The notes beneath the pieces were generated by a model. It had not been told where the DNA came from and made no database searches. It worked only from the letters and a program-made list of their open reading frames with translations. This document shows positions 3,601-16,668 of a stretch of DNA of 35,387 bases, in pieces. A program made the translations under genes and the position numbers. Source of the stretch: Promethearchaeota archaeon. GTDB lineage: Archaea; Asgardarchaeota; Lokiarchaeia; Sigyniarchaeales; SOKP01. The DNA is taken from contig SHMU01000021.1 of assembly GCA_008080765.1 (NCBI GenBank), positions 1 to 35,387 of the forward strand, written 5' to 3'. Each line of letters starts with the position of its first letter. The first letter of the stretch is position 1.

Positions 3601-4083
3601 ATGGCGGAAGAATTTACACGCTTTCTTGAACAAGCAAGAAAAGAACCTTTAGAACAAAAAGTTAATGATTTTGGAGAAATTGTGGAAAAAATAATGCGCA
3701 TCGTCCTTAAAATCCCTGATTTAGTTGATCAGTCGCTTGGGAGGATGAATCAGAAGATAAATAATCTGGATACTCAAATTAATCAATTAAATAATCGAAT
3801 CTCGAGTTTGGGCTCATCAGCGGGCCCCTCTCCCCAAAAAGGAGAAGCCTCGGCATCTGGACCTGCTTCTGCACCAGGGGGTCCACCGGGATCACCTCCT
3901 CCGTCAGGAGGCCCACCGGGGTCGCCCCCTCCATCAGGAGGTCCGCCAGGGGGTCCGCCAGGGGGTCCACCGGGATCACCCCCTTCACCCTCTCCACGAC
4001 CCGCGGGTCCCGTTTCATTACGAGGTGCCATTATGGGGGAACTTAAAGAGCTCTTTGCAAAACGGAGACAATCCCAAGGGTAG
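3601..4083 (+). CDS. Coiled-coil protein with Pro/Gly-rich tract
   Basis: 160 residues in three parts. Residues 1-72 are helical, ending in a heptad coiled coil (LGRMNQKINNLDTQINQLNN). Residues about 87-138 are almost only P, G and S, built from repeats of PPSGGPPGS and GGPP. Residues 138-156 form a short amphipathic basic helix (LRGAIMGELKELFAKRR). A GGAG Shine-Dalgarno site (3590-3593) precedes the ATG. The layout of short coiled coil, polyproline and terminal amphipathic helix recalls eukaryotic actin-nucleation subunits (CCDC53/WASH or WH2-type proteins), and Asgard archaea have profilins that can bind polyproline. That link is an inference from architecture only. The Pro/Gly tract is much richer in GC than its surroundings and generates spurious antisense ORFs. 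Confidence 0.8.
   Translation: MAEEFTRFLEQARKEPLEQKVNDFGEIVEKIMRIVLKIPDLVDQSLGRMNQKINNLDTQINQLNNRISSLGSSAGPSPQKGEASASGPASAPGGPPGSPPPSGGPPGSPPPSGGPPGGPPGGPPGSPPSPSPRPAGPVSLRGAIMGELKELFAKRRQSQG
3880..4000 (+). repeat. Tandem Pro/Gly-coding repeat inside the gene
   Basis: Imperfect repeated units of the type GGTCCACCGGGATCACC and CCAGGGGGTCCG encode GGPPGSPPPS and GGPP copies. Unit number is likely to vary between strains. Confidence 0.75.
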
Positions 4084-6363: not shown

Positions 6364-6410
6364 CTTCTAAACTTCTAAACATCTAAACTTCTAAACTTCT
6401 AAAATTCTAA
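6363..6410. repeat. Octamer tandem repeat at a convergent gene junction
   Basis: Six tandem copies of ACTTCTAA (copies 3 and 6 each have one change) cover 48 bp. They run from the last base of the upstream gene's stop codon into the last codons of elf1 on the other strand. Confidence 0.85.
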
Positions 6411-6980
6411 AAATCCAGGGTCGTCAAAAATATCATCAATATCTTTCTTTTTCTTAATACCCGTTTCATCATGCTCAGAAAAAAGACTGTCCTCATCAGT
6501 TCTAATCCCCGACTCTAATTCACTCGCTTCCAACTCAAGGAGCGCACTTTGCTCCAGCCGCTTATATTTTTGTGACTTTTCCTTCCAATCTTGTACCTCT
6601 TCCATACTAAAATCTTCTTCATCTAACAGTTGGGCAGCCTTTACTTTACAAAGATCCGATAATATGGAATATGCAAACGCTAATTCTCCCCATTCTTCTT
6701 CTTGTTTTAATTTGTTAATTCGCTTTTTAAGTCTTTGTATTTCCTGTTCTGCATAATAAATATCGATGAAATCTCCAAATGCGTCAACAGGTTCCGAAAT
6801 TGAATTAATCAAGACCTCTTTTTCTAATCCACAATTACCGCATTTAACAGTGGCAAAACCCCCTTTCTCTTTTATATTTTCGGTCTTTACTGCCTTTTCA
6901 CCGCATTGTGGGCATGTAAAAATCTTGGGAAGTCTTTTCACTCGTCGGTATGTTGTTTGTTTTCGTTTACGCCTTCCTAT
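6399..6980 (-). CDS. elf1: Transcription elongation factor Elf1 homologue with acidic C-terminal extension
   Basis: Elf1/ELOF1 is a small zinc protein that binds RNA polymerase during elongation. The zinc ribbon is CPQC...CGNC, followed by the diagnostic SEPVDAFGDFIDIYY segment. Counting from the only classical start (GTG at 6941) the protein has 180 residues. The frame is open further upstream, and the extra codons give GRRKRKQTTYRRVKRLPKIF, the basic tail expected at an Elf1 N-terminus. The likely start is therefore the ATA codon at 6980-6978, six nt after GGTGA (6991-6987), giving 193 residues. Typical Elf1 has about 80-110 residues. Here a helical coiled region and an acidic tail (DIDDIFDDPGFLEF) add about 110. 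Convergent with the previous gene, divergent from the next. Confidence 0.88.
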   Translation of the reverse strand: MGRRKRKQTTYRRVKRLPKIFTCPQCGEKAVKTENIKEKGGFATVKCGNCGLEKEVLINSISEPVDAFGDFIDIYYAEQEIQRLKKRINKLKQEEEWGELAFAYSILSDLCKVKAAQLLDEEDFSMEEVQDWKEKSQKYKRLEQSALLELEASELESGIRTDEDSLFSEHDETGIKKKKDIDDIFDDPGFLEF

Positions 6981-7251: not shown

Positions 7252-8346
7252 ATGGAACATAAGAGTCTCTCACTTGAGTATGATAGAAATTTAATCATTC
7301 GAACTCTTGAGGATATAAATAAAAGATACATTATTCTATTCCTCTATGTAATACGAAATGACTTATTTAATGATTTAAATGATCAACCGAGAGTTGAGGC
7401 CTATAAAAAAGTGATCGGATTAGATGAAATTTTTAAAGGGAATATTTTAACCTTCTGGGATACTGAATTTACGGAGATTGCAATAGATTTGGGATTATTC
7501 AAAAATATTCGGAGTGTGAGAGAATTTGAGCAGAAAGATCAAGATGATTTCATACGGTTAGGAGAGACGACAATCACCATAGAGGGGGATACGATTTCAA
7601 TTCCCGCCGATACCCTTTATGCAATAATTACCAGAAAATTCACGTTTTTGACGAAAAGAAATTTTAATCTCGCCTTAACACAGTTGAAAAGTGTCCGCTG
7701 CGAATATAGTGGCATAATTCACCCTTTTATCTATCAAATTGGAGAGGAAGATTACACCCTTTCCGACGATTTATATTATCTGTTAGAACAATTCGGCAAT
7801 ATCTATCAAGCTATTAAGGTTGAACATACCATTGAAGGATTTTATGAAAGAGTGAAAGAGATCTCAGATAAAGTTATCAAATATCTTGATATTTTTGATT
7901 CGACCTTAACGAATAAAAAAGTATTTAGCAAAATCTCTCAGGCAATTGAAGAAGATAAAGAGATCATTGAATTTCTTAAAAAGGAGAAGATCTCTTTATC
8001 AGAAAAATTTGAATTCGAAAAAATTGATTCTACAGCTACGATCTTTAACAAGTGGTATTCTCAATTGCTCCAATTGCTCCGATTCTTCTATAAGATAGAA
8101 AATATCGAGAAAAACGTGGAACGATTGAGAGGATATTATTCTGGAAAGGAAAAGAAGTATAATTATTTAGAATTTATTGAAAAAGTATCTTTTAATGAAG
8201 ATGATATTGTAACTAATATCAGAAATGAATTACTTAAAAGTAGAAATAAATTAATTGAGATTAATGAATTGCTTAATGAAATAAACGAAAAACAAATTAA
8301 ATTACTGAATTTAGATTATGAGAGATTCTTTATTGAAAATAGTTGA
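7252..8346 (+). CDS. Helical protein of unknown function, first gene of the 7252-16207 block
   Basis: 364 residues from the ATG at 7252 (a TTG at 7240 would add four). Not recognised. The first 200 residues alternate helix and strand (TTITIEGDTISIPADTLYAI). The last 160 form charged coiled-coil helices ending in ELLNEINEKQIKLLNLDYERF. There are no cysteine motifs, P-loop or membrane helices. About 270 bp of AT-rich DNA lies between it and the divergent elf1, so the promoter of the whole block probably sits there. The next gene starts 48 bp later on the same strand. Confidence 0.82.
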   Translation: MEHKSLSLEYDRNLIIRTLEDINKRYIILFLYVIRNDLFNDLNDQPRVEAYKKVIGLDEIFKGNILTFWDTEFTEIAIDLGLFKNIRSVREFEQKDQDDFIRLGETTITIEGDTISIPADTLYAIITRKFTFLTKRNFNLALTQLKSVRCEYSGIIHPFIYQIGEEDYTLSDDLYYLLEQFGNIYQAIKVEHTIEGFYERVKEISDKVIKYLDIFDSTLTNKKVFSKISQAIEEDKEIIEFLKKEKISLSEKFEFEKIDSTATIFNKWYSQLLQLLRFFYKIENIEKNVERLRGYYSGKEKKYNYLEFIEKVSFNEDDIVTNIRNELLKSRNKLIEINELLNEINEKQIKLLNLDYERFFIENS

Positions 8347-8382
8347 TTGTGCTCTGTTAAATCCAAATCAAATAATTGAAAA

Positions 8383-8387
8383 GGTGA
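8383..8387 (+). promoter_or_regulatory. Ribosome binding site for a GTG start
   Basis: GGTGA, seven nt before the GTG at 8395. It decides the start, since the first zinc-ribbon cysteine is already residue 3. Confidence 0.65.
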
Positions 8388-8394
8388 AATATAG

Positions 8395-9372
8395 GTGATA
8401 TGTCCCTCATGTAATATAGAAATGAATCAACTCGTTGAGGGGATTTATGAATGTCCTAGTTGTAAAAAGATTATTAGAGAAAAAAACGAAGAAATAGCTG
8501 TGGAAACGCAGAAAAAGGAAATTATTGGGACTCTTCTTGAAGGTGATTATTTTCACAATAATTTTTCGATTAACCAGCAATATGAGACTGTAGAATCGGG
8601 TATTTTAATTCATAAGACGGATACTCGTGCATTTGGAGCATTGATATGTCATAGCACATTGTTAGAAGCCGAACGATATATTCGTCTTTCATGGTGGAAA
8701 AAATCTTTTTATCGACATGCGGGAATGATTAAAATATACGAGGAGGCAGTATTTAACAACCTTATCCTCGCATTAGAAAAAGTCTATGAGAATTTTGATG
8801 AATTTTGGACGTTTAAGGGAAAATTTCGGGAAAATACCTCCAAAAGTGAAGAAGATCTCTTAAAAGAGAAAAAATTGGACTTGATAAAATTTCGAATAAT
8901 TGAAAATAGGAGCTGTCCTAATTGTCTCAAAAAGATGAATAAAAATAAATCTCATTATGAATGTCCTCATTGCGGCGAAATTGTGATACTTGAGGGATAT
9001 AACCAACCAATATTTAATATTGATCCTAAGGATCTGAAATTGAATTTCCAAGCAAACTTTCCCATCAATTTTTATCTCCCTATAAGCGGAATTACCATAA
9101 AATGGCTCATGGGAGAATGGAAAGCTTTGGCAGTTATTTATTCTAAAGATAATCCTAATAAAAAATGGCTTCGTTTTTATTGGTGGGTTCGAGATTTAAA
9201 GAATATTTTAAAATATGGAACAAGACGCTTTGCCGAAGATAACAAGCTCGGCTGGCAAGCGAAAAAAGGCTCAGGAACCACAAATATCTATAATAAAGAG
9301 CTCTTGAAGCCCTTAATTGATGCTCTCAAAAAACTTGCCAATGAATTAAACTGGGAGCTTACCAACAAATAA
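8395..9372 (+). CDS. Tandem zinc-ribbon protein with duplicated PC4-like module
   Basis: 325 residues made of two similar halves. Each half begins with a zinc ribbon: C3/C6/C20/C23 and C174/C177/C190/C193. Each ribbon is followed by a beta-rich module with a WW-containing strand (YIRLSWWKK near 96, WLRFYWWVR near 258), then a final helix (NNLILALEKVYENF; KELLKPLIDALKKLANEL). In the second half the order strand, strand, KKGSGTTNIYNKE, helix resembles the ssDNA-binding PC4/coactivator p15 fold; that comparison is an inference by eye. A nucleic-acid-binding role is plausible from the zinc ribbons. It ends 13 bp before the next gene and is clearly in the same transcription unit. Confidence 0.85.
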   Translation: MICPSCNIEMNQLVEGIYECPSCKKIIREKNEEIAVETQKKEIIGTLLEGDYFHNNFSINQQYETVESGILIHKTDTRAFGALICHSTLLEAERYIRLSWWKKSFYRHAGMIKIYEEAVFNNLILALEKVYENFDEFWTFKGKFRENTSKSEEDLLKEKKLDLIKFRIIENRSCPNCLKKMNKNKSHYECPHCGEIVILEGYNQPIFNIDPKDLKLNFQANFPINFYLPISGITIKWLMGEWKALAVIYSKDNPNKKWLRFYWWVRDLKNILKYGTRRFAEDNKLGWQAKKGSGTTNIYNKELLKPLIDALKKLANELNWELTNK

Positions 9373-9385
9373 GGAGATCAGAAAA

Positions 9386-10525
9386 ATGTCAAGCGAACAA
9401 GACCCCACTTGGAATATGTTATTAAAAGATTTTATCTCTGGATTGGATCTAGCCATCCAACATTTAGAAGAACGGGACGTTGAAAGAATTCCGGGTGCTC
9501 GGGAGGCGTTAATACGCAGACTGGAAAATATGAGGACGCATTTCCCCAAAAATAACGGGGAAATCTTTGTTAAGGCAATTGACGATAAAATCCAAGAGGC
9601 GTTTTTTCCTAATACCAAAAATTTTGCCGAAGCATTTAAAAAAGTGCTGAAATCGCGCACCCATGAACAAGATTACATTATAAATGAATTGATTAATGGA
9701 TTCGTGACTTCAAAGACAAAAGCTATCGCATCTAATACTCAAACACCAATTATTGATAGAATGGTCGAAGCATTTAGCACTCGAAATGATTTTCATATTG
9801 TAGACCATCAATTTTATGCAATGTTTGGAGATCCTAATAAGCCTCGTAAATTTGTCCAAAATAAATTACAAGAGCTCGTAGATTTGTTCGGGTTGGTATC
9901 GAAGGAACTTGTGGTTGAGAGGGATAAGAGAAGAAGCGAACGGAAAGTCTATACTTTCTACACCTTTCCCGATGAAATTCTCACAATCTTGGAAGAAAAA
10001 TATATCATTATTGATAATGAATTGGGATATGCCTATGTGTCTGAGGAATTTGACAGAAACGTCTTTATATGTTTATTTCTTGCCAATATAGCGATTAAAC
10101 GAGAAAATCTAAAAGAAATTGGGGGAGAATATACGGTGAATGGAATTTCAGCAATCTTTGCACTTATCTTATTGCTTAGTTTTATGCCAAAATTGCGCAT
10201 TGATGAAAATAATCCTATCCTACGGGATCCCACCTTTAATGAGAGCAATATGAGCGTGATTCCCAAATCATGGATGATGCGCCAAATATTGGATAAATTA
10301 TTCGAACCTTTAATTAAAATTATCGCTTATCGGTTGGGGGGAGGGTTGTGGTTGTCCAATATTATCGATTCTGATATTAACAAAAAAATACATAATCAAA
10401 TACGGTTTCTCCTTAAGGATGTCAACAGATGGATATTAGGCGAGCTGGTACGTGTAGAAGTGCCGATATTCGTAGAAATCTCTAATATCTTCCAAGAAAT
10501 TATCATAGGAGCAGAAACCGAATAA
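9386..10525 (+). CDS. Uncharacterised helical protein
   Basis: 379 residues, not recognised. An N-terminal helical region (1-110) precedes a central stretch that may be a winged-helix or small alpha/beta unit (about 125-215: FHIVDHQFYAMFGDP...RKVYTFYTFPDEILTILEEKY). A C-terminal all-helical part has a hydrophobic helix (GISAIFALILLLSFM, about 252-266) that could be a buried core helix rather than a membrane span. A GGAGATC Shine-Dalgarno site (about 9373-9379) precedes the ATG. It follows the zinc-ribbon gene by 13 bp and is followed by another unknown helical gene after 46 bp, so joint function is likely. Confidence 0.83.
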   Translation: MSSEQDPTWNMLLKDFISGLDLAIQHLEERDVERIPGAREALIRRLENMRTHFPKNNGEIFVKAIDDKIQEAFFPNTKNFAEAFKKVLKSRTHEQDYIINELINGFVTSKTKAIASNTQTPIIDRMVEAFSTRNDFHIVDHQFYAMFGDPNKPRKFVQNKLQELVDLFGLVSKELVVERDKRRSERKVYTFYTFPDEILTILEEKYIIIDNELGYAYVSEEFDRNVFICLFLANIAIKRENLKEIGGEYTVNGISAIFALILLLSFMPKLRIDENNPILRDPTFNESNMSVIPKSWMMRQILDKLFEPLIKIIAYRLGGGLWLSNIIDSDINKKIHNQIRFLLKDVNRWILGELVRVEVPIFVEISNIFQEIIIGAETE

Positions 10526-10571
10526 TTATAAAAATACTGATAAAAATACCAACGATCTGGGTGATTATAGA

Positions 10572-11828
10572 ATGGTTCGAGAGAAATGGACGGATATTTT
10601 GCCTCGATATCAAACGTTTATTAGTCATATGAAACCAATACTTCGAGAAACTAGAAGAATTATAGAAGATCTTGATGCGGATTTGTTATATGATACAGAA
10701 GTCTTAGATAAGATTCGAGAAGAAGAAGAAAGGAGAAATGTACGAAAAGTAAGGGCTCTTTCTGAATTTTCTGCAATGTATAGATCCAATGTCTATGAAT
10801 TAATGAAAGATTTTATAATTAAATATCGAGATCGTATTTCTCTTATTGATATTAAGGATTACATCATCGATTTCCTCCAAGAATCCATAGAAGCACTGAC
10901 TATTTTACGAAACATTACCAATCCAGATCAGACCAATTTAGAAAAGACCTATCTCCATATTTTAGTCAAATATCTTGAGAGGATTTTATTTCCTCGTGGA
11001 AGCTCTATAAAAATAATTTATGAGAAATTATTAGAACATGCCCCCGAATATTATGAATCACAGCGACATATCTTAAAAACTCATACTCATTATAGAGAAG
11101 ACTTAGAACATTCGGATTTTTTTATAATTCCCGGCATTTCACCGAAGGTATATCAAATCATTAATAATATAACCTCTTTTTTCAACTTGGATCCAAATTA
11201 TGGTCCATTTCCAGAAAGAAAGAACCAAGAAATCCCTATGATTCTAAAGAATGATGTGTTTCTCCCATATATCGATTCTATTGCGAATCCAGAGGAGGAA
11301 GCAATTACAAGCATTGCAGAAAGAATCGGAATGCGCCTGATTGATGGCATCTTCTTGGCACCTAAAGAAGAGCTTATCGATCTGCTAAAAGATAATAACT
11401 TTTTGAGGACTAAAACTCAAGCTGATGGTATCACTAGGTATATTCCTCAATTTAGTAATGAAACATTAATACTATATTACTTAGCATTTGCCTCCAGAAG
11501 GAGAGGCTTTTTATCTAAAGAACTTATTAATTGGATTACTATTAATTTTGCATTTTTAATCTATATGGGGATTTTAAAGTGGAAACTCACCGATGAAAAT
11601 ATATTCTATTCCATTTTTAAAGATCTTCAAACAAATGAGAAGGTTCTTCCTTACTTAATGAAATTAATCTGTTTCCCTTATTATTTAGGACTGGATAAAA
11701 CAAAAATACGAGATAGCCCCCAGTACAGAAAAGAAATCTTTAATTTCATTGGAGCACAAATCGATAACTTAACATATTTAATTGAGCAAGTTGGAAAATT
11801 TTGTTATGATAAATTTGAAAAAAGTTAA
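10572..11828 (+). CDS. Uncharacterised helical protein
   Basis: 418 residues, not recognised. The N-terminal 140 residues are charged helices (RRIIEDLDADLLYDTEVLDKIREEE is the start of one). The rest is mostly helical, with a hydrophobic segment near 310-345 (LINWITINFAFLIYMGILKW) at a position comparable to that in the preceding protein. The two may be distant relatives, but I cannot show this. No catalytic motif, zinc site or signal peptide is seen. GGTGATTATAG directly precedes the ATG, a good Shine-Dalgarno site. The AAA+ ATPase gene follows after 68 bp, so this protein could be its partner or substrate adaptor. Confidence 0.83.
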   Translation: MVREKWTDILPRYQTFISHMKPILRETRRIIEDLDADLLYDTEVLDKIREEEERRNVRKVRALSEFSAMYRSNVYELMKDFIIKYRDRISLIDIKDYIIDFLQESIEALTILRNITNPDQTNLEKTYLHILVKYLERILFPRGSSIKIIYEKLLEHAPEYYESQRHILKTHTHYREDLEHSDFFIIPGISPKVYQIINNITSFFNLDPNYGPFPERKNQEIPMILKNDVFLPYIDSIANPEEEAITSIAERIGMRLIDGIFLAPKEELIDLLKDNNFLRTKTQADGITRYIPQFSNETLILYYLAFASRRRGFLSKELINWITINFAFLIYMGILKWKLTDENIFYSIFKDLQTNEKVLPYLMKLICFPYYLGLDKTKIRDSPQYRKEIFNFIGAQIDNLTYLIEQVGKFCYDKFEKS

Positions 11829-11896
11829 CATTAAGAGTTTAAAGTATAAAGAGTTGAGATAAGATTACATATACAGATGAAGAAATCAAAGAAAGG

Positions 11897-12943
11897 TTGG
11901 GCAAATATGGAACAGTCTATTTGCCAGAGGATATTAAAGAAAATGTGGAGGATATAAAAGGGAATGAATTTAAAAAGGAGCGATTAAACGATTTTTTTAA
12001 GGCTCTGACTAAATATAAGGAACTTTCGGAACAATTAAAAAAAACTAAGCTTTCTCCAAGCCTTACAGTTCTTTTATTCGGACCTCCTGGTACGGGAAAA
12101 ACATCATTAACACGAGCTTTTTCAAAAAAATATAATATTCCTATGTGTGTGGTAGAATCAGATAGATTAGTTTCTCCTTTACTTGGAGATACTATAAAAA
12201 ACATACGAAATGTGGTAGAATTATCTGCAGATATTGCTAAAGAAAACAATTCATTTGTATTATTCTTTGATGAAATAGATGCTATTGGCTCTGAACGCTC
12301 CAATATACATGAAGTCGGAGAAATAAAGAGAGCAGTAATCTCTTTTTTACAAGTAATTGACAAAGTGAATTACGAGGGAATTCCGCTTGCGATTTTTGGA
12401 GCTACAAATCATCAGCATCAACTTGATAGCGCAATTTGGAGAAGATTTACCTTTCATCTGCATTTTGACTTTCCAAATTATGAATTACGCAAAGAAATAA
12501 TGGAATCCTTTTTAGAAAAGATCGAGAATGCAAATATTGGTGTAGATAAGGGCATTTATGAGCACTTAAATAATGAATATTCCCTCATAAAAGAGGTCCA
12601 CGAGAATTTGGAAACAAAACTGGGACGAAGTATTTCTGAATTTGAAAACAATCTTCTATGGAATGAAATAGAAAAGAAGCAAGATATCAATGGCTTATTA
12701 AAATTAACCATTGGATATTCAGGCTCTGATATTGAACGAGGTACACGGGTGGCTTTATTTAAGGTAATCCAGACAGGGATCCTAACCTATAATATTTTTT
12801 ATCAATCATTAGAATTGGTTGGGGGGACTGCGGTACATGTGGATAGACAAGATGTGTTAAGCAGTACCCGATCCTTAAAGCGAACTGCCACTAAGTATGC
12901 TAGTAATAAGACTCCTCCAAGGGAGACCCCTCCAGAGGTATAA
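11897..12943 (+). CDS. AAA+ ATPase of the 7252-16207 block
   Basis: Classical AAA-type ATPase, 348 residues from TTG. Walker A is GPPGTGKTS (62-70), Walker B is VLFFDEID (121-128), sensor 1 is the Asn of FGATN (171), and the arginine-finger pair is R182/R183 in WRRF. A helical small domain ends with GYSGSDIERGTR. It resembles the single-ring AAA proteins found in prokaryotic defence or remodelling loci more than Cdc48 or proteasomal ATPases, as it has a short N-terminus without an N-domain. The TTG start is uncertain: the open frame continues upstream to a stop at 11855-11857, and residues TYTDEEIKERLGKYG look like real protein, which would need an ATT start at 11864. It is the only recognisable ATPase in the block and presumably its motor. 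Confidence 0.93.
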   Translation: MGKYGTVYLPEDIKENVEDIKGNEFKKERLNDFFKALTKYKELSEQLKKTKLSPSLTVLLFGPPGTGKTSLTRAFSKKYNIPMCVVESDRLVSPLLGDTIKNIRNVVELSADIAKENNSFVLFFDEIDAIGSERSNIHEVGEIKRAVISFLQVIDKVNYEGIPLAIFGATNHQHQLDSAIWRRFTFHLHFDFPNYELRKEIMESFLEKIENANIGVDKGIYEHLNNEYSLIKEVHENLETKLGRSISEFENNLLWNEIEKKQDINGLLKLTIGYSGSDIERGTRVALFKVIQTGILTYNIFYQSLELVGGTAVHVDRQDVLSSTRSLKRTATKYASNKTPPRETPPEV

Positions 12944-13029
12944 TATACTATAATATAATGATTTAAAATTAAAATGATTGAATAGAAAACAACTATAAAA
13001 TTTATGCAAAAGGGTATTGTCGGATTAAA

Positions 13030-14088
13030 ATGGATATTGAATTTTTAGATTTTAAGAAAATTAAAAACACATTTAGCGATTCGGAACAGTTACAAGGAAA
13101 ATTTGTCCAAGCTCAGTTAAAATATCAGAAATTTGAGGCTTTGAGAGATAAGACCATCGGGTCCCGCTCCATTGAGGATAATAAATTTATTCTCAGCATC
13201 AAAGATGAGACTAAAAAACTGGAGGCTCTTCATGGAGATCTTATGGAAGAACTACAAAATGATTTACAATATTTAATTACTTTTCAAGATAAACTTACAA
13301 AAAATTATAAACAATTCTTTATTGATAAATTAAAAAAGATTGCACTCTCTACAGAAACGACCAAAAATATAGGTTTATCCTATATTAATGATAAAAAAAT
13401 CTCTAAAATCGTCAACTCCATCACATTTATCCCTTCTTTGAGTATTAATAACTGGTCTAATCTGCTTGATACTTTACAAATGAATAATTCATTTCTAAAT
13501 TGTATGAATAAGGTTGAAGCATTTTATCGAAATCTTTTAGAAAAACACTTTAACAGAAGGTTAGCTGAAATACCCGAGAATACTGAAAAAATATTGATTG
13601 AGGAGTATAAAGAAGCCTTTTTCAAAGATCCAACTCTTACCTTTAATACATTTATTCGCAACCTTAAGACAAAACTGACTGAGGAGGAATTTGAAAAAAG
13701 AAGGACTCTTATTGAAAACACCAAAAAAACTAAAGAACTTGAAAAGCTAAAACAACAACAAAAAGAACAGACGAGTACTCTTAATGATTATTTTAAGTAT
13801 TCAGATAAGGAATTTCAAAGAAGACGCAGAAAAAAACAGAGAAAAAGTCTTTCAGAAATTGCCCAAGAACCGCTCAAAGAGCAAGAAATAGATGACAAAA
13901 AGAAAGAAAAAATAGAAAAGTTCAAATCTAAGTTTGAAGACTCCTTTGAGAAGAAATATCTCCTCCAAGAAGAAGATTTGGAAGACCCCTTGGACTTAAT
14001 CAGGAAAAGGAAAAAAGAAAAGGATAAAGAATATAAGAATTTTATAGACAAATTCAAAAAAGAAAGAAGTGATGAAGATTTCAACTAA
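13030..14088 (+). CDS. Charged coiled-coil protein next to the SMC-like gene
   Basis: 352 residues, not recognised. Helical throughout: residues 10-100 and 215-350 are coiled and extremely rich in K, E, Q and R (for example RRRRKKQRKSL near 264-274). The middle (100-215) is a more globular helical domain. A PIP-box-like STLNDYFK occurs near 249-256 but lacks the usual glutamine. The 3' end overlaps the next gene by 17-20 bp, which implies translational coupling and a shared complex. By position and charge it could act as a kleisin-type linker between the SMC-like and winged-helix proteins. That is only a hypothesis. Confidence 0.82.
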   Translation: MDIEFLDFKKIKNTFSDSEQLQGKFVQAQLKYQKFEALRDKTIGSRSIEDNKFILSIKDETKKLEALHGDLMEELQNDLQYLITFQDKLTKNYKQFFIDKLKKIALSTETTKNIGLSYINDKKISKIVNSITFIPSLSINNWSNLLDTLQMNNSFLNCMNKVEAFYRNLLEKHFNRRLAEIPENTEKILIEEYKEAFFKDPTLTFNTFIRNLKTKLTEEEFEKRRTLIENTKKTKELEKLKQQQKEQTSTLNDYFKYSDKEFQRRRRKKQRKSLSEIAQEPLKEQEIDDKKKEKIEKFKSKFEDSFEKKYLLQEEDLEDPLDLIRKRKKEKDKEYKNFIDKFKKERSDEDFN

Positions 14089-15676
14089 TTTTGAAGATAT
14101 AGTCATAGAAGGGAAAACAATATCCTTAAAAGAGAGATTTACTCTTATTTTAGGAGATATTTCACTTGAACAACTTGGGAATGAAAAAATAAATACTCTC
14201 TTTAGATCATTTAATGATTTTCATGCAATTAAGCTATCCCAATTTTTAGACGTACTTCAACACATAAATAAGGACTACTCTCCTCTTATGCATGCTAATG
14301 CTTTTTTAGAGCATTTGATCTCTTTCAAAACAATTTATAACAGTGATCTTCAGTTATTAAATTATCATATTACCACACTAGAGTCTTTTACATCAATGTT
14401 ACGGTACCTTTCTCTTAAACAGAAAAAAGAGCGATTAAGTGATGAATTACATATTTCAGAAGTTAAGTATAAGTCAGGTAAATTATCGGCAAATAGAGAT
14501 CTTTTAGCCAAATTAAATCGCACAATAGAACAAAATGAAAAAGAATTAAATACTATCAAAGAGCCATACTATAACTTAAAAAATCAAAGAAATCAAATTA
14601 TTGAGATGATTAATCAATTTCAAGATACAATTAACAAATTAAACCAAGAGAAAAAAGAAAAATTTAGTGAAATTAATAAGCATCTCAGAGACAATGAACC
14701 CCCCTCTCCTAAAGATAAAGAGGAGCCTCTTACCGTTCCAGAAATATCCGACAATATTAAAGTGAAAAACTTAAGGAAAGAAGCAAAAGATCTCCATACA
14801 CAAATTAAAGAATACAGCTCAAAATTAAAAAAGAAAAAAGAAAAACTTGAAAAAATAGAACCCCAATTTCAAACATACAATAAAAAATTTACTTCTTTAA
14901 CAGACCAGATTGACTCTGCAAAAGAAAAAAGGATTGAGATCGAGAAGAATATGGAACAATTTATGCATGAGAAGTACCACGATTTATCGACGGAGTTTGA
15001 TACTATTCATTTTAATACTGTTAAGGCACCCGAAACTCTTAAAAATGAACTTTCAAATGTTGAAAACCAATTGAAGACTTTGAAAAATTCTTATAACACA
15101 CTTGAGAAGGATCCAAATAAAATGATTTCCTTAATTGAGAAGAGGATCGCGGAACTCAGCGCGAAAGTGAGCGATAAGAAAAATAATTCTTATCTTTCAG
15201 AAAATAGAGAAGAGATCTTGTTATCGATTGAACAATTTCAAAAAGTAGAATTACTATTAAATAATATAGAACACCTCACAAACTCTCTGCTTTCAGAGAT
15301 TAATTTGAAGGCTTCTCTTAACATAGCGCTTTCCGCAGAAGAAAGGGTTCTCTGGCTCTCTCCAATCTTTAAAAGAAATGATCGCGAACATATCATTTTT
15401 CATGAATTAACCACTCCCGAAAAAGTCTACTATGCAATGGTATTCTTTCTTGCTTTCAAGATAATACTCACTAATAATAAGGTAATCAAATTTTCAAATT
15501 TATTTTTACATCAAAATTTCAATAAAAGGGGTTCCATATTCAGAACTCTTCGAAAAATTATTCCCATCCTAAAAAATAAGAAAAAACTAGCCTCCGCTCA
15601 GTTTGTTTTTATTATATCAAATCTGGAAATGAAAAAACCAATTAAAAATATTAATATCATTCAAATATCAAAATAA
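14072..15676 (+). CDS. SMC/RecN-shaped coiled-coil protein with degenerate ATPase ends
   Basis: 534 residues from the ATG at 14072 (a GTG directly before it is possible). The N-terminal strand pattern RFTLILGDISLEQLGNEKI (22-40) sits where an SMC/Rad50 Walker A would be but lacks GxxGxGKS/T. Residues about 115-320 are two coiled-coil arms with a break near 208-225 (NEPPSPKDKEEP). The C-terminal segment LTTPEKVYYAMVFFLAFK (446 on) looks like an eroded LSGGE signature. The stretch LFLHQNFNKRG (from about 476) replaces the Walker B LDE, and AQFVFIISN (about 509-517) resembles the Q-F-I-x-T-H/N strand. I infer a pseudo-ATPase of SMC/RecN ancestry; an unrelated coiled-coil protein is the alternative. 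It overlaps the gene before it and lies 24 bp before the next start. Confidence 0.8.
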   Translation: MKISTNFEDIVIEGKTISLKERFTLILGDISLEQLGNEKINTLFRSFNDFHAIKLSQFLDVLQHINKDYSPLMHANAFLEHLISFKTIYNSDLQLLNYHITTLESFTSMLRYLSLKQKKERLSDELHISEVKYKSGKLSANRDLLAKLNRTIEQNEKELNTIKEPYYNLKNQRNQIIEMINQFQDTINKLNQEKKEKFSEINKHLRDNEPPSPKDKEEPLTVPEISDNIKVKNLRKEAKDLHTQIKEYSSKLKKKKEKLEKIEPQFQTYNKKFTSLTDQIDSAKEKRIEIEKNMEQFMHEKYHDLSTEFDTIHFNTVKAPETLKNELSNVENQLKTLKNSYNTLEKDPNKMISLIEKRIAELSAKVSDKKNNSYLSENREEILLSIEQFQKVELLLNNIEHLTNSLLSEINLKASLNIALSAEERVLWLSPIFKRNDREHIIFHELTTPEKVYYAMVFFLAFKIILTNNKVIKFSNLFLHQNFNKRGSIFRTLRKIIPILKNKKKLASAQFVFIISNLEMKKPIKNINIIQISK

Positions 15677-15689
15677 TTACATTTGAAAA

Positions 15690-15693
15690 GTGA
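15690..15693 (+). promoter_or_regulatory. Ribosome binding site deciding the winged-helix start
   Basis: GTGA followed by AATAGTT and the ATG. The same word AAAGTGAAATAGTT stands before the TTG at 22246. Confidence 0.55.
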
Positions 15694-15700
15694 AATAGTT

Positions 15701-16207
15701 ATGGCTGTAAATGAAGATGTATATAATAGAACGGTAAGAGAAATCACCAGGTTAATCCTGACCAATGAAAAAAAAATGATAAGAGAAGAAGATTTAATTA
15801 ATTTGTGTGATGAATCATTGGACTTTGAACAAATTATAAGCGAAATTTATGCCAATTTAAAAAAAGTGGGATTGGATTTAATTGTGTCAACCTTTCTTGA
15901 ACAAAGATATTATGTCTTAACCTCGGAAGGAAAAGATGATACCATCACACCCAGTCAGTATGGGGCTCTTGCGTTTATTCTTGCGTTAAGTAAAGAAGTT
16001 GATGATAATTTAAACTTAGAGGATGCTAAGCAGCTGTTCTCTAATATTTGGAAAGATGTTGAATTTCTCCTCAAACACGACTACTTAAGAAAACTCACCA
16101 TAAAAAACCTTGAAATCCTAAAAGTGACACCCCTTGGTAAGGCATTACTGAAGAATGTAATCCCTGATCTAAAATTAAAACATTTACTCGAGTTATTCAA
16201 AAAATAA
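15701..16207 (+). CDS. Small double winged-helix protein, KITE/MAGE-like
   Basis: 168 residues from the ATG at 15701, chosen because GTGA at 15690-15693 stands seven nt before it; a TTG at 15683 would add six. Two successive winged-helix-like units can be read: about 10-75, ending in the wing RYYVLTSEG, and about 84-146 (PSQYGALAFILALSK, then LEDAKQLF, then a wing ILKVTPLGKALL). The size and tandem arrangement match KITE proteins (ScpB, MukE, Nse1/Nse3-MAGE), which bind kleisins in SMC complexes. It is the last gene of the block, right after the SMC-shaped gene, as in SMC operons. Assignment is by pattern; a plain DNA-binding wHTH regulator is the alternative. Confidence 0.8.
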   Translation: MAVNEDVYNRTVREITRLILTNEKKMIREEDLINLCDESLDFEQIISEIYANLKKVGLDLIVSTFLEQRYYVLTSEGKDDTITPSQYGALAFILALSKEVDDNLNLEDAKQLFSNIWKDVEFLLKHDYLRKLTIKNLEILKVTPLGKALLKNVIPDLKLKHLLELFKK

Positions 16208-16251: not shown

Positions 16252-16668
16252 CTATTCTAAATCCATTTTAAATTGCTCGTAAATCTTTTTAACTCTTTCT
16301 GCGGAAGGACCAGACCCCCTCACGCCACTTTCGTCAACCACTATTTTTCCATTTAAAATAGAAATAATCCCTTGCTCCTCATTGTATTTCACATGACCCT
16401 TAGAGAAGATAGTAGCAATTCTATCGGATAACGCCTGCATCGGAAAGGGCTCCTCTTCCAGAGTCACATATTGATAATATTTCTGGCTGATTAATACTTT
16501 TGGATATGCCTGTCCTTTCTCATTCTTGGCATCTGAAAGAATTAAATTAGAGTTTTTTGAGACTCCTTTTAGCTGCCCCACAAAAAATCTCTTTTCATCC
16601 ACATAGACTTTGACGATTTGGTCAATAAATTTAGCAATCTCTGTATTATATTCTCTCTCAATGCTCAT
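16252..16668 (-). CDS. Sm-like (LSm) protein with C-terminal extra domain
   Basis: 138 residues. Residues 12-72 have the Sm fold pattern: IVKVYVDEKRFFVGQLKGV (Sm1-type strands), NLILSDAKNE, and a final strand PKVLISQKYYQYVTLEE. Sm proteins form RNA-binding rings. Here a second domain (about 74-138) ends with GKIVVDESGVRGSGPSAERV and a helix. This two-domain layout is like archaeal SmAP3 proteins, where the C-terminal domain has no settled function. GTGA precedes the ATG on the minus strand. It lies downstream of hypB, separated by a 70-bp heptamer repeat. Confidence 0.75.
   Translation of the reverse strand: MSIEREYNTEIAKFIDQIVKVYVDEKRFFVGQLKGVSKNSNLILSDAKNEKGQAYPKVLISQKYYQYVTLEEEPFPMQALSDRIATIFSKGHVKYNEEQGIISILNGKIVVDESGVRGSGPSAERVKKIYEQFKMDLE

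Follow-up and report, generated by a model that had tools for sequence, protein, structure and literature searches.

A conserved eight-gene block in Lokiarchaeia encoding a classical AAA+ ATPase and a predicted pseudo-SMC protein

Organization of the eight-gene block

Asgard archaea, which include the Lokiarchaeia, are the closest known microbial relatives of eukaryotes. The window, by which we mean the whole stretch of 35,387 nucleotides of Lokiarchaeial DNA analysed here, carries eight plus-strand open reading frames between positions 7252 and 16207 (genes A to H), all confirmed in the window's list of open reading frames and bordered on each side by a minus-strand gene:

6399..6941, minus strand: Elf1-like zinc-ribbon gene, divergent and upstream; left border (Pfam Elf1 1.7e-15, and synteny)
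7252..8346, plus strand: gene A, helical protein of 364 aa, no known family
8395..9372, plus strand: gene B, 325 aa, two zinc ribbons; probable nucleic-acid binder
9386..10525, plus strand: gene C, 379 aa, mostly helical; by profile, distant paralog of D
10572..11828, plus strand: gene D, 418 aa; by profile, distant paralog of C
11897..12943, plus strand: gene E, classical Cdc48-type AAA+ ATPase; ATT start at 11864 probable
13030..14088, plus strand: gene F, 352 aa, fast-evolving and helical, with a charged, basic tail
14069..15676, plus strand: gene G, 535 aa, predicted pseudo-SMC
15683..16207, plus strand: gene H, 174 aa, winged-helix-like; putatively related to the KITE-like subunit found in Asgard SMC operons
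16252..16668, minus strand: Lsm-domain gene, convergent and downstream; right border (Pfam Lsm_C 7e-12, and synteny)

The genes are closely packed, with gaps of 48 (A-B), 13 (B-C), 46 (C-D), 68 (D-E) and 86 bp (E-F), a 20 bp overlap of F and G, and a 6 bp gap between G and H. An earlier, sequence-only reading of this DNA had described eight same-strand genes with gaps of 13-86 bp and one overlap; genes, strand and overlap stand, but the 6 bp gap had been missed. Since orthologs of E begin like MTFSDDEIKERLGKYG, the true start of this gene is probably the ATT codon at 11864, upstream of the called start, which would reduce the D-E gap to 35 bp. Scans of the eight proteins against Pfam, PADLOC, NCBIfam and PHROGs gave a confident name to E only, its AAA match (2.4e-25) being the sole one above the Pfam cut-off, in agreement with the earlier claim that only the ATPase was recognisable at family level. 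A sigma-70 promoter scan was uninformative.

Elsewhere in the window, positions 3601-4083 encode a 160-aa protein with a coiled-coil-like N-terminus, a proline/glycine-rich (polyproline) middle and a near-invariant C-terminus, SLRGAIMGELKELFAKR. The gene is kept upstream of the operon in Lokiarchaeia, and, as a guess, its product might bind profilin or actin.

Conservation and distribution

Searches with gene D found it in 60 of the 79 genomes of the window's order, at a single locus per genome (fragments aside), and in 17 of 17 high-quality genomes. When a profile of C was compared with 84,980 species, 58 loci were recovered, all titled Lokiarchaeota, Lokiarchaeia or Prometheoarchaeum, and a scan of viral contigs found no C homologues. 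All 58 contigs with C were colinear for the genes detected, and 36 carried all eight; those short of eight ended early, had F or G too diverged for tblastn, or contained an island of other genes after E. The minus-strand Elf1 and Lsm genes lay upstream and downstream in most C contigs of sufficient length, and gene order was kept between families whose D genes share only 45-51% identity. This arrangement is far beyond chance. The proposal that the eight genes form one unit was borne out, as was its survival of the neighbourhood search that had been named as a possible refutation, since homologues were not scattered singly but kept their order in every contig recovered with C.

Marginal matches aside, C and D profile matches were confined to families f1 and f3 and to one genome of family f16 (G133; f1, f2, f3, f4 and f16 are working labels). 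Because six genomes of the sister families f2 and f4, in the same order, had no C or D by profile search, core status is limited to f1 and f3, and the block is core in these two families of Lokiarchaeia. Median identity to the window was highest for C (74%), D (74%) and E (69%), intermediate for B (61%), A (57%) and H (57%), and lowest for F (37%) and G (30%). In three genomes (G027, G029 and G068) E is followed by an island of other genes, with F on its far side in G029. The islands at L042, L043 and L079 each carry an SMC/ABC-like ATPase of 644-669 aa; by eye, the L042 island also includes a PAPS-reductase/QueC-like gene, among others, and at L079 gene E is split into two ORFs.

The AAA+ ATPase and its conserved neighbors

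Gene E belongs to the classical AAA, Cdc48-type ATPases. Walker A, Walker B and an arginine finger are present (GPPGTGKT at residue 62, DEID at 125 and RRF at 182) and invariant in orthologs, except for the second letter of DEID, which varies to DEL, and the best matches in a PDB profile search were p97/Cdc48 (∼1e-49). IetA, the best PADLOC and NCBIfam match of E (4e-60 and 3e-52), was considered as a name and rejected at 178 bits against the NCBIfam cut-off of 510, with no IetS protease recognised among the eight genes.

Both zinc ribbons of B scored below the Pfam cut-off, and each is followed by a similar WW-containing stretch (a repeat seen by eye). The second Cys4 set (C174, C177, C190, C193) is invariant in 17 orthologs, and B is probably a nucleic-acid binder. 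PDB profile searches with B, C and D returned nothing informative, and no solved relative was found for A, C or D. The AF2 model of C (pLDDT 80) gave nothing significant in a Foldseek search of the PDB (best E 0.47); its winged-helix stretch is faintly like TFIIE-alpha, at a non-significant Foldseek E of 0.76 (prob 0.87). In whole genomes the D profile also picks up C genes (best E 1e-8), and on this profile evidence C and D are taken to be distant paralogs.

Gene G is predicted to have an SMC-type head that has lost its ATPase motifs

An AF2 model of G built with 33 orthologs (pLDDT 84, pTM 0.56) places strand/helix lobes at the N- and C-termini, joined by long helices without a hinge; a loop of ∼17 residues (210-226), modelled at low confidence, forms the coiled-coil tip and leaves no space for one, and G is also without a Zn hook. 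Foldseek comparison of the model with the PDB returned Rad50, Smc, Smc6 and JetC at 5e-8 to 1e-3, and 25 of the 26 matches at E<=1e-3 were members of the SMC superfamily by title (Rad50, Smc, Smc5/6, LmuB, JetC, MukB), the other, 9a6c, not being placeable by title. The coiled coil could account for some of these matches, but there were also alignments of head size, to the Smc heads of 4i99, 1xex and 5h68 (132-147 columns). In profile comparison, the C-terminal ∼140 residues of G matched the C-head of Asgard SMC at 4.6e-6; none of 60 column-shuffled targets scored better than 0.12, and none of 19 other profiles better than 0.026. The N-terminal half aligned with SMC in the expected place at a non-significant 0.031, and the sequence profile of G found only coiled coils in the PDB. 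The SMC assignment therefore relies on the structural model, on the match to the C-head and on where the gene lies. An NCBIfam ASRP match to G (5e-5) was confined to the coiled coil.

Walker A was absent from all 18 G orthologs scanned by script, and no Walker B was recognisable in G. When the 33-row ortholog alignment was assessed as consensus and invariant columns, the only invariant residues at expected SMC motif sites were G29, which ends the strand where the SMC P-loop begins, and the pair E451-K452 at the SMC signature site. A nearly full-length open G frame was found in 37 contigs, a count that leaves out an uncounted number of contigs with a stop in frame. Thus, by model and C-head profile, G shows the hallmark of the SMC superfamily, a split ABC-type head with its halves at either end of a coiled coil; the Walker A, signature and Walker B set and the hinge of strict SMCs were not found in it. 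We therefore describe G as a predicted pseudo-SMC, a long coiled coil with an SMC-type head that lacks Walker A and, judging by its sequence, appears to have lost catalysis.

Gene H is linked to KITE-like subunits

KITE proteins are tandem winged-helix proteins that partner SMC-kleisin complexes. H matched a KITE-like family from Asgard SMC operons at 9.1e-7 by hhalign, the best of 60 shuffles reaching 0.0065, and this family has weak Pfam matches to Nse1, MksE, MAGE and ScpB, as well as to MarR/HTH families. H had no direct match to the Pfam KITE families, and a PDB profile search with it gave nothing informative. Since the KITE-like profile found little in whole Loki genomes, H would be a strongly diverged descendant or else a distant relative, and the family match suggests that it is a KITE-like winged-helix subunit. 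The descriptions of G as SMC-shaped and of H as a winged-helix protein, made from the letters alone, have thus both gained support. F, encoded beside the SMC-like G, is among the least conserved of the eight genes, and its profile showed no similarity to kleisin-like genes.

Relatives of A, C, D and E lie beside full-length SMC genes

Two genomes of family f3, G004 (one contig) and G007, carry A-like, C-like, D-like and AAA genes followed by a full SMC (1057 and 1071 aa) with an intact P-loop, which occupies the place of G. Homology to this operon was found for A (hhalign 8e-12), C (1e-25), D (3e-16) and E (phmmer 6e-62), the values for C and D being from profile comparison. The SMC is followed by a gene of 322/325 aa and then by one of 313 aa (truncated in G007, where the contig ends). 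G004 continues with a 176-aa gene, has B close by on the opposite strand, and shares with other Lokis the Lsm gene near the block. The best PDB matches of the G004 SMC (L051) were Smc5 (5e-9) and Smc6 (3e-8), ahead of other SMCs, and the 313-aa gene, two places after it, has a weak Nse4_C match (0.0013, below the Pfam cut-off).

In family f16, which belongs to another class, G133 has a D-like gene (4e-8), an AAA gene and the start of an SMC gene on one contig and a C-like gene (9e-10) on another, and G132 has AAA and SMC genes. Both genomes have a further SMC adjoining a KITE-like gene, and the two SMCs of each (L083 and L101 in G132; L102 and L103 in G133) are sister paralogs, one by AAA and the other by KITE-like genes, which could be a Smc5/Smc6-style heterodimer. 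A 149-aa gene near the C-like gene of G133 (L073:2750-3199) looks JAB/MPN-like by eye. In the loci opened from other Asgard families, SMC is accompanied by a gene of ∼250 aa and a KITE-like gene of ∼200 aa (with or without a zinc protein) and no AAA adjoins it; the ∼250-aa gene, at first a candidate kleisin, has Nse1 (0.039) as its best PDB match. The block had been described as built around one AAA+ ATPase; E is indeed intact, but the AAA+ is not the only center, given the full SMCs of these relatives and the KITE-like relatives of H.

In a tree of SMC head domains that contained no eukaryotic sequences, the AAA-linked SMCs of G004, G007 and G132 (L051, L072 and L083) formed one clade (99/97), adjoining the KITE-linked SMCs and apart from both canonical SMCs and a third Asgard group. 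The AAA-linked SMC of G177 is a long branch of unsure place, and its locus (L109) includes a KITE-like gene, with no homologue of A, C or D detected there. A divergent SMC (1056-1071 aa) at L112 and L116 forms its own clade; after it come two small genes and one of ∼455 aa that, by eye, looks like a primase large subunit.

The window's own genome (G000:C54) has a second operon (L178:2850-11780) with a degenerate 434-aa AAA-like gene, a 1147-aa SMC, a 217-aa gene and, close by, a KITE-like gene. In G000 and related genomes the P-loop of this SMC is intact, and the 434-aa protein can be aligned both to a degenerate AAA from another family (4e-10) and to AAA-linked relatives of E (1.5e-7). In the window's block the AAA is live and the SMC dead; the second operon has it the other way round. 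Cooperation between the two is a guess, and it is an unlikely extension that a single AAA-SMC machine was split into two half-dead operons whose products assemble into one complex, with ATP work moved from the SMC head to the AAA+ ring.

A candidate chromosome-associated machine

We favor, with a probability of roughly 0.55, the reading that the operon encodes a core chromosome-associated machine, derived from or sister to the Asgard SMC/KITE complex, in which E performs the ATP step. For it we count an order kept in all 58 contigs, the presence of D in all 17 high-quality genomes, the full SMC beside homologues of A, C, D and E, and the matches of G and H; against it, the 0.031 of the G N-terminal half, the coiled coils alone found in the PDB by the G profile, the lack of kleisin similarity in F and of a direct Pfam KITE match in H, and the failure to find a solved relative for A, C or D. 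G would be what was once the SMC subunit, reduced to a pseudo-ATPase but still with its head fold and coiled-coil arm, with H as the KITE-like winged-helix subunit and F encoded beside them where a kleisin might be. We infer that G, F and H would form a non-hydrolysing clamp or scaffold on DNA, and that a second module would consist of E together with A, the zinc-ribbon protein B and the conserved paralogs C and D. Nucleic acid would be contacted by B and the winged helices, and a hexamer of E, taking over the ATP work, would drive loading, opening or unloading of the clamp or a client through C/D. By analogy with what was proposed for Arcadin-4 (PMC9389158), the lost ATP binding of G could also mean a structural role away from DNA.

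The operon lies among information-processing genes (Elf1, Lsm, aRF1), which, with the zinc ribbons of B and the TFIIE resemblance of C, would fit a complex for transcription or RNA handling. We consider this quite improbable, since the TFIIE match is not significant, G and H match parts of SMC complexes, and in G004 and G007 a full SMC shares its locus with homologues of A, C, D and E. A cytoskeletal or membrane-remodelling machine, with the pseudo-SMC, on the pattern of Arcadin-4, as a structural coiled coil and the AAA+ remodelling filaments as Vps4 does, would suit the lost P-loop of G, the Cdc48/Vps4-type AAA of E and the conserved polyproline protein encoded nearby; KITE-like H and zinc-ribbon B point to DNA instead, and the full-SMC relatives look chromosomal, so that this alternative too appears rather unlikely.

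The sequence-only reading had offered a chromosome-handling, defence or remodelling machine, of which chromosome handling is the best reading and defence is disfavored. Anti-plasmid or anti-virus defence of the Wadjet, Lamassu or IetAS type draws on the IetA matches of E and on the LmuB and JetC matches of the G model, and is made very improbable by the low IetA score, by the failure to recognise a protease, nuclease or other effector among the eight genes, and by a block that is core, single-copy and syntenic, not patchy, and whose C gene found no homologue in viral contigs. That G is a decaying remnant in an old co-directional neighbourhood without shared function would account for the low conservation of G and F and the islands after E in three genomes, but is highly unlikely in view of the 37 open G frames (contigs with a stop excluded), the invariance of G29, E451 and K452, and the order kept between distant families.

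On the preferred chromosome-associated reading, an AAA+ motor would be linked genetically to an SMC-type complex in the closest archaeal relatives of eukaryotes, and the machine would have remained core although its SMC head appears to have lost catalysis. If true, this reading offers a natural test of SMC complex function without head ATPase activity and bears on the origin of Smc5/6-like complexes.

Comparison with known systems

No described system was found that covers the eight-gene set, as the absence of a match to any named operon had already suggested. IetAS consists of the AAA ATPase IetA, the nearest named AAA to E, and the protease IetS; E falls well below the IetA cut-off (178 of 510 bits), no IetS homologue was recognised, and the operon does not have the patchy distribution of a defence locus. 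Wadjet, MukBEF and Lamassu have SMC-like heads, to whose JetC, MukB and LmuB the G model was matched by Foldseek, and Wadjet and MukBEF have KITE partners. The SMCs of all three are active ATPases. No JetD/LmuA-type nuclease was recognised in the operon, which has an AAA+ instead, and PADLOC gave no JetA, JetB or JetD match, its JetC matches being weak and in the coiled coil.

Arcadin-4, an SMC-superfamily protein that associates with the cytoskeleton, and ASRP/coalescin (PMC9389158) resemble G in belonging to the SMC superfamily and have specialised archaeal roles. ASRP candidates kept in that study had to carry ATPase motifs, whereas G matches ASRP in its coiled coil only.

Archaeal "SMC5/6-related" SMCs are known (Yoshinaga and Inagaki, 2021, as cited in PMC9389158). 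In the literature searched, which excluded preprints and most subscription journals, nothing was found on an AAA/C/D module, operon partners or a pseudo-SMC derivative of such SMCs. The eukaryotic Smc5/6 complex comprises Smc5, Smc6, the kleisin Nse4, the KITE proteins Nse1 and Nse3, and Nse5/6. The window's operon differs from it in its short SMC without Walker A, in having an AAA+, in A, C and D, which have no recognisable counterpart, and in that no kleisin was recognised. Its links to Smc5/6 are weak and run through the relative operon, whose SMC (L051) has Smc5 and Smc6 as best PDB matches and whose neighbor weakly matches Nse4_C, and through the KITE-like family with its weak Nse1 and MAGE matches. 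The full SMCs found here, placed in a tree without eukaryotic sequences, may belong to or near the archaeal "SMC5/6-related" group.
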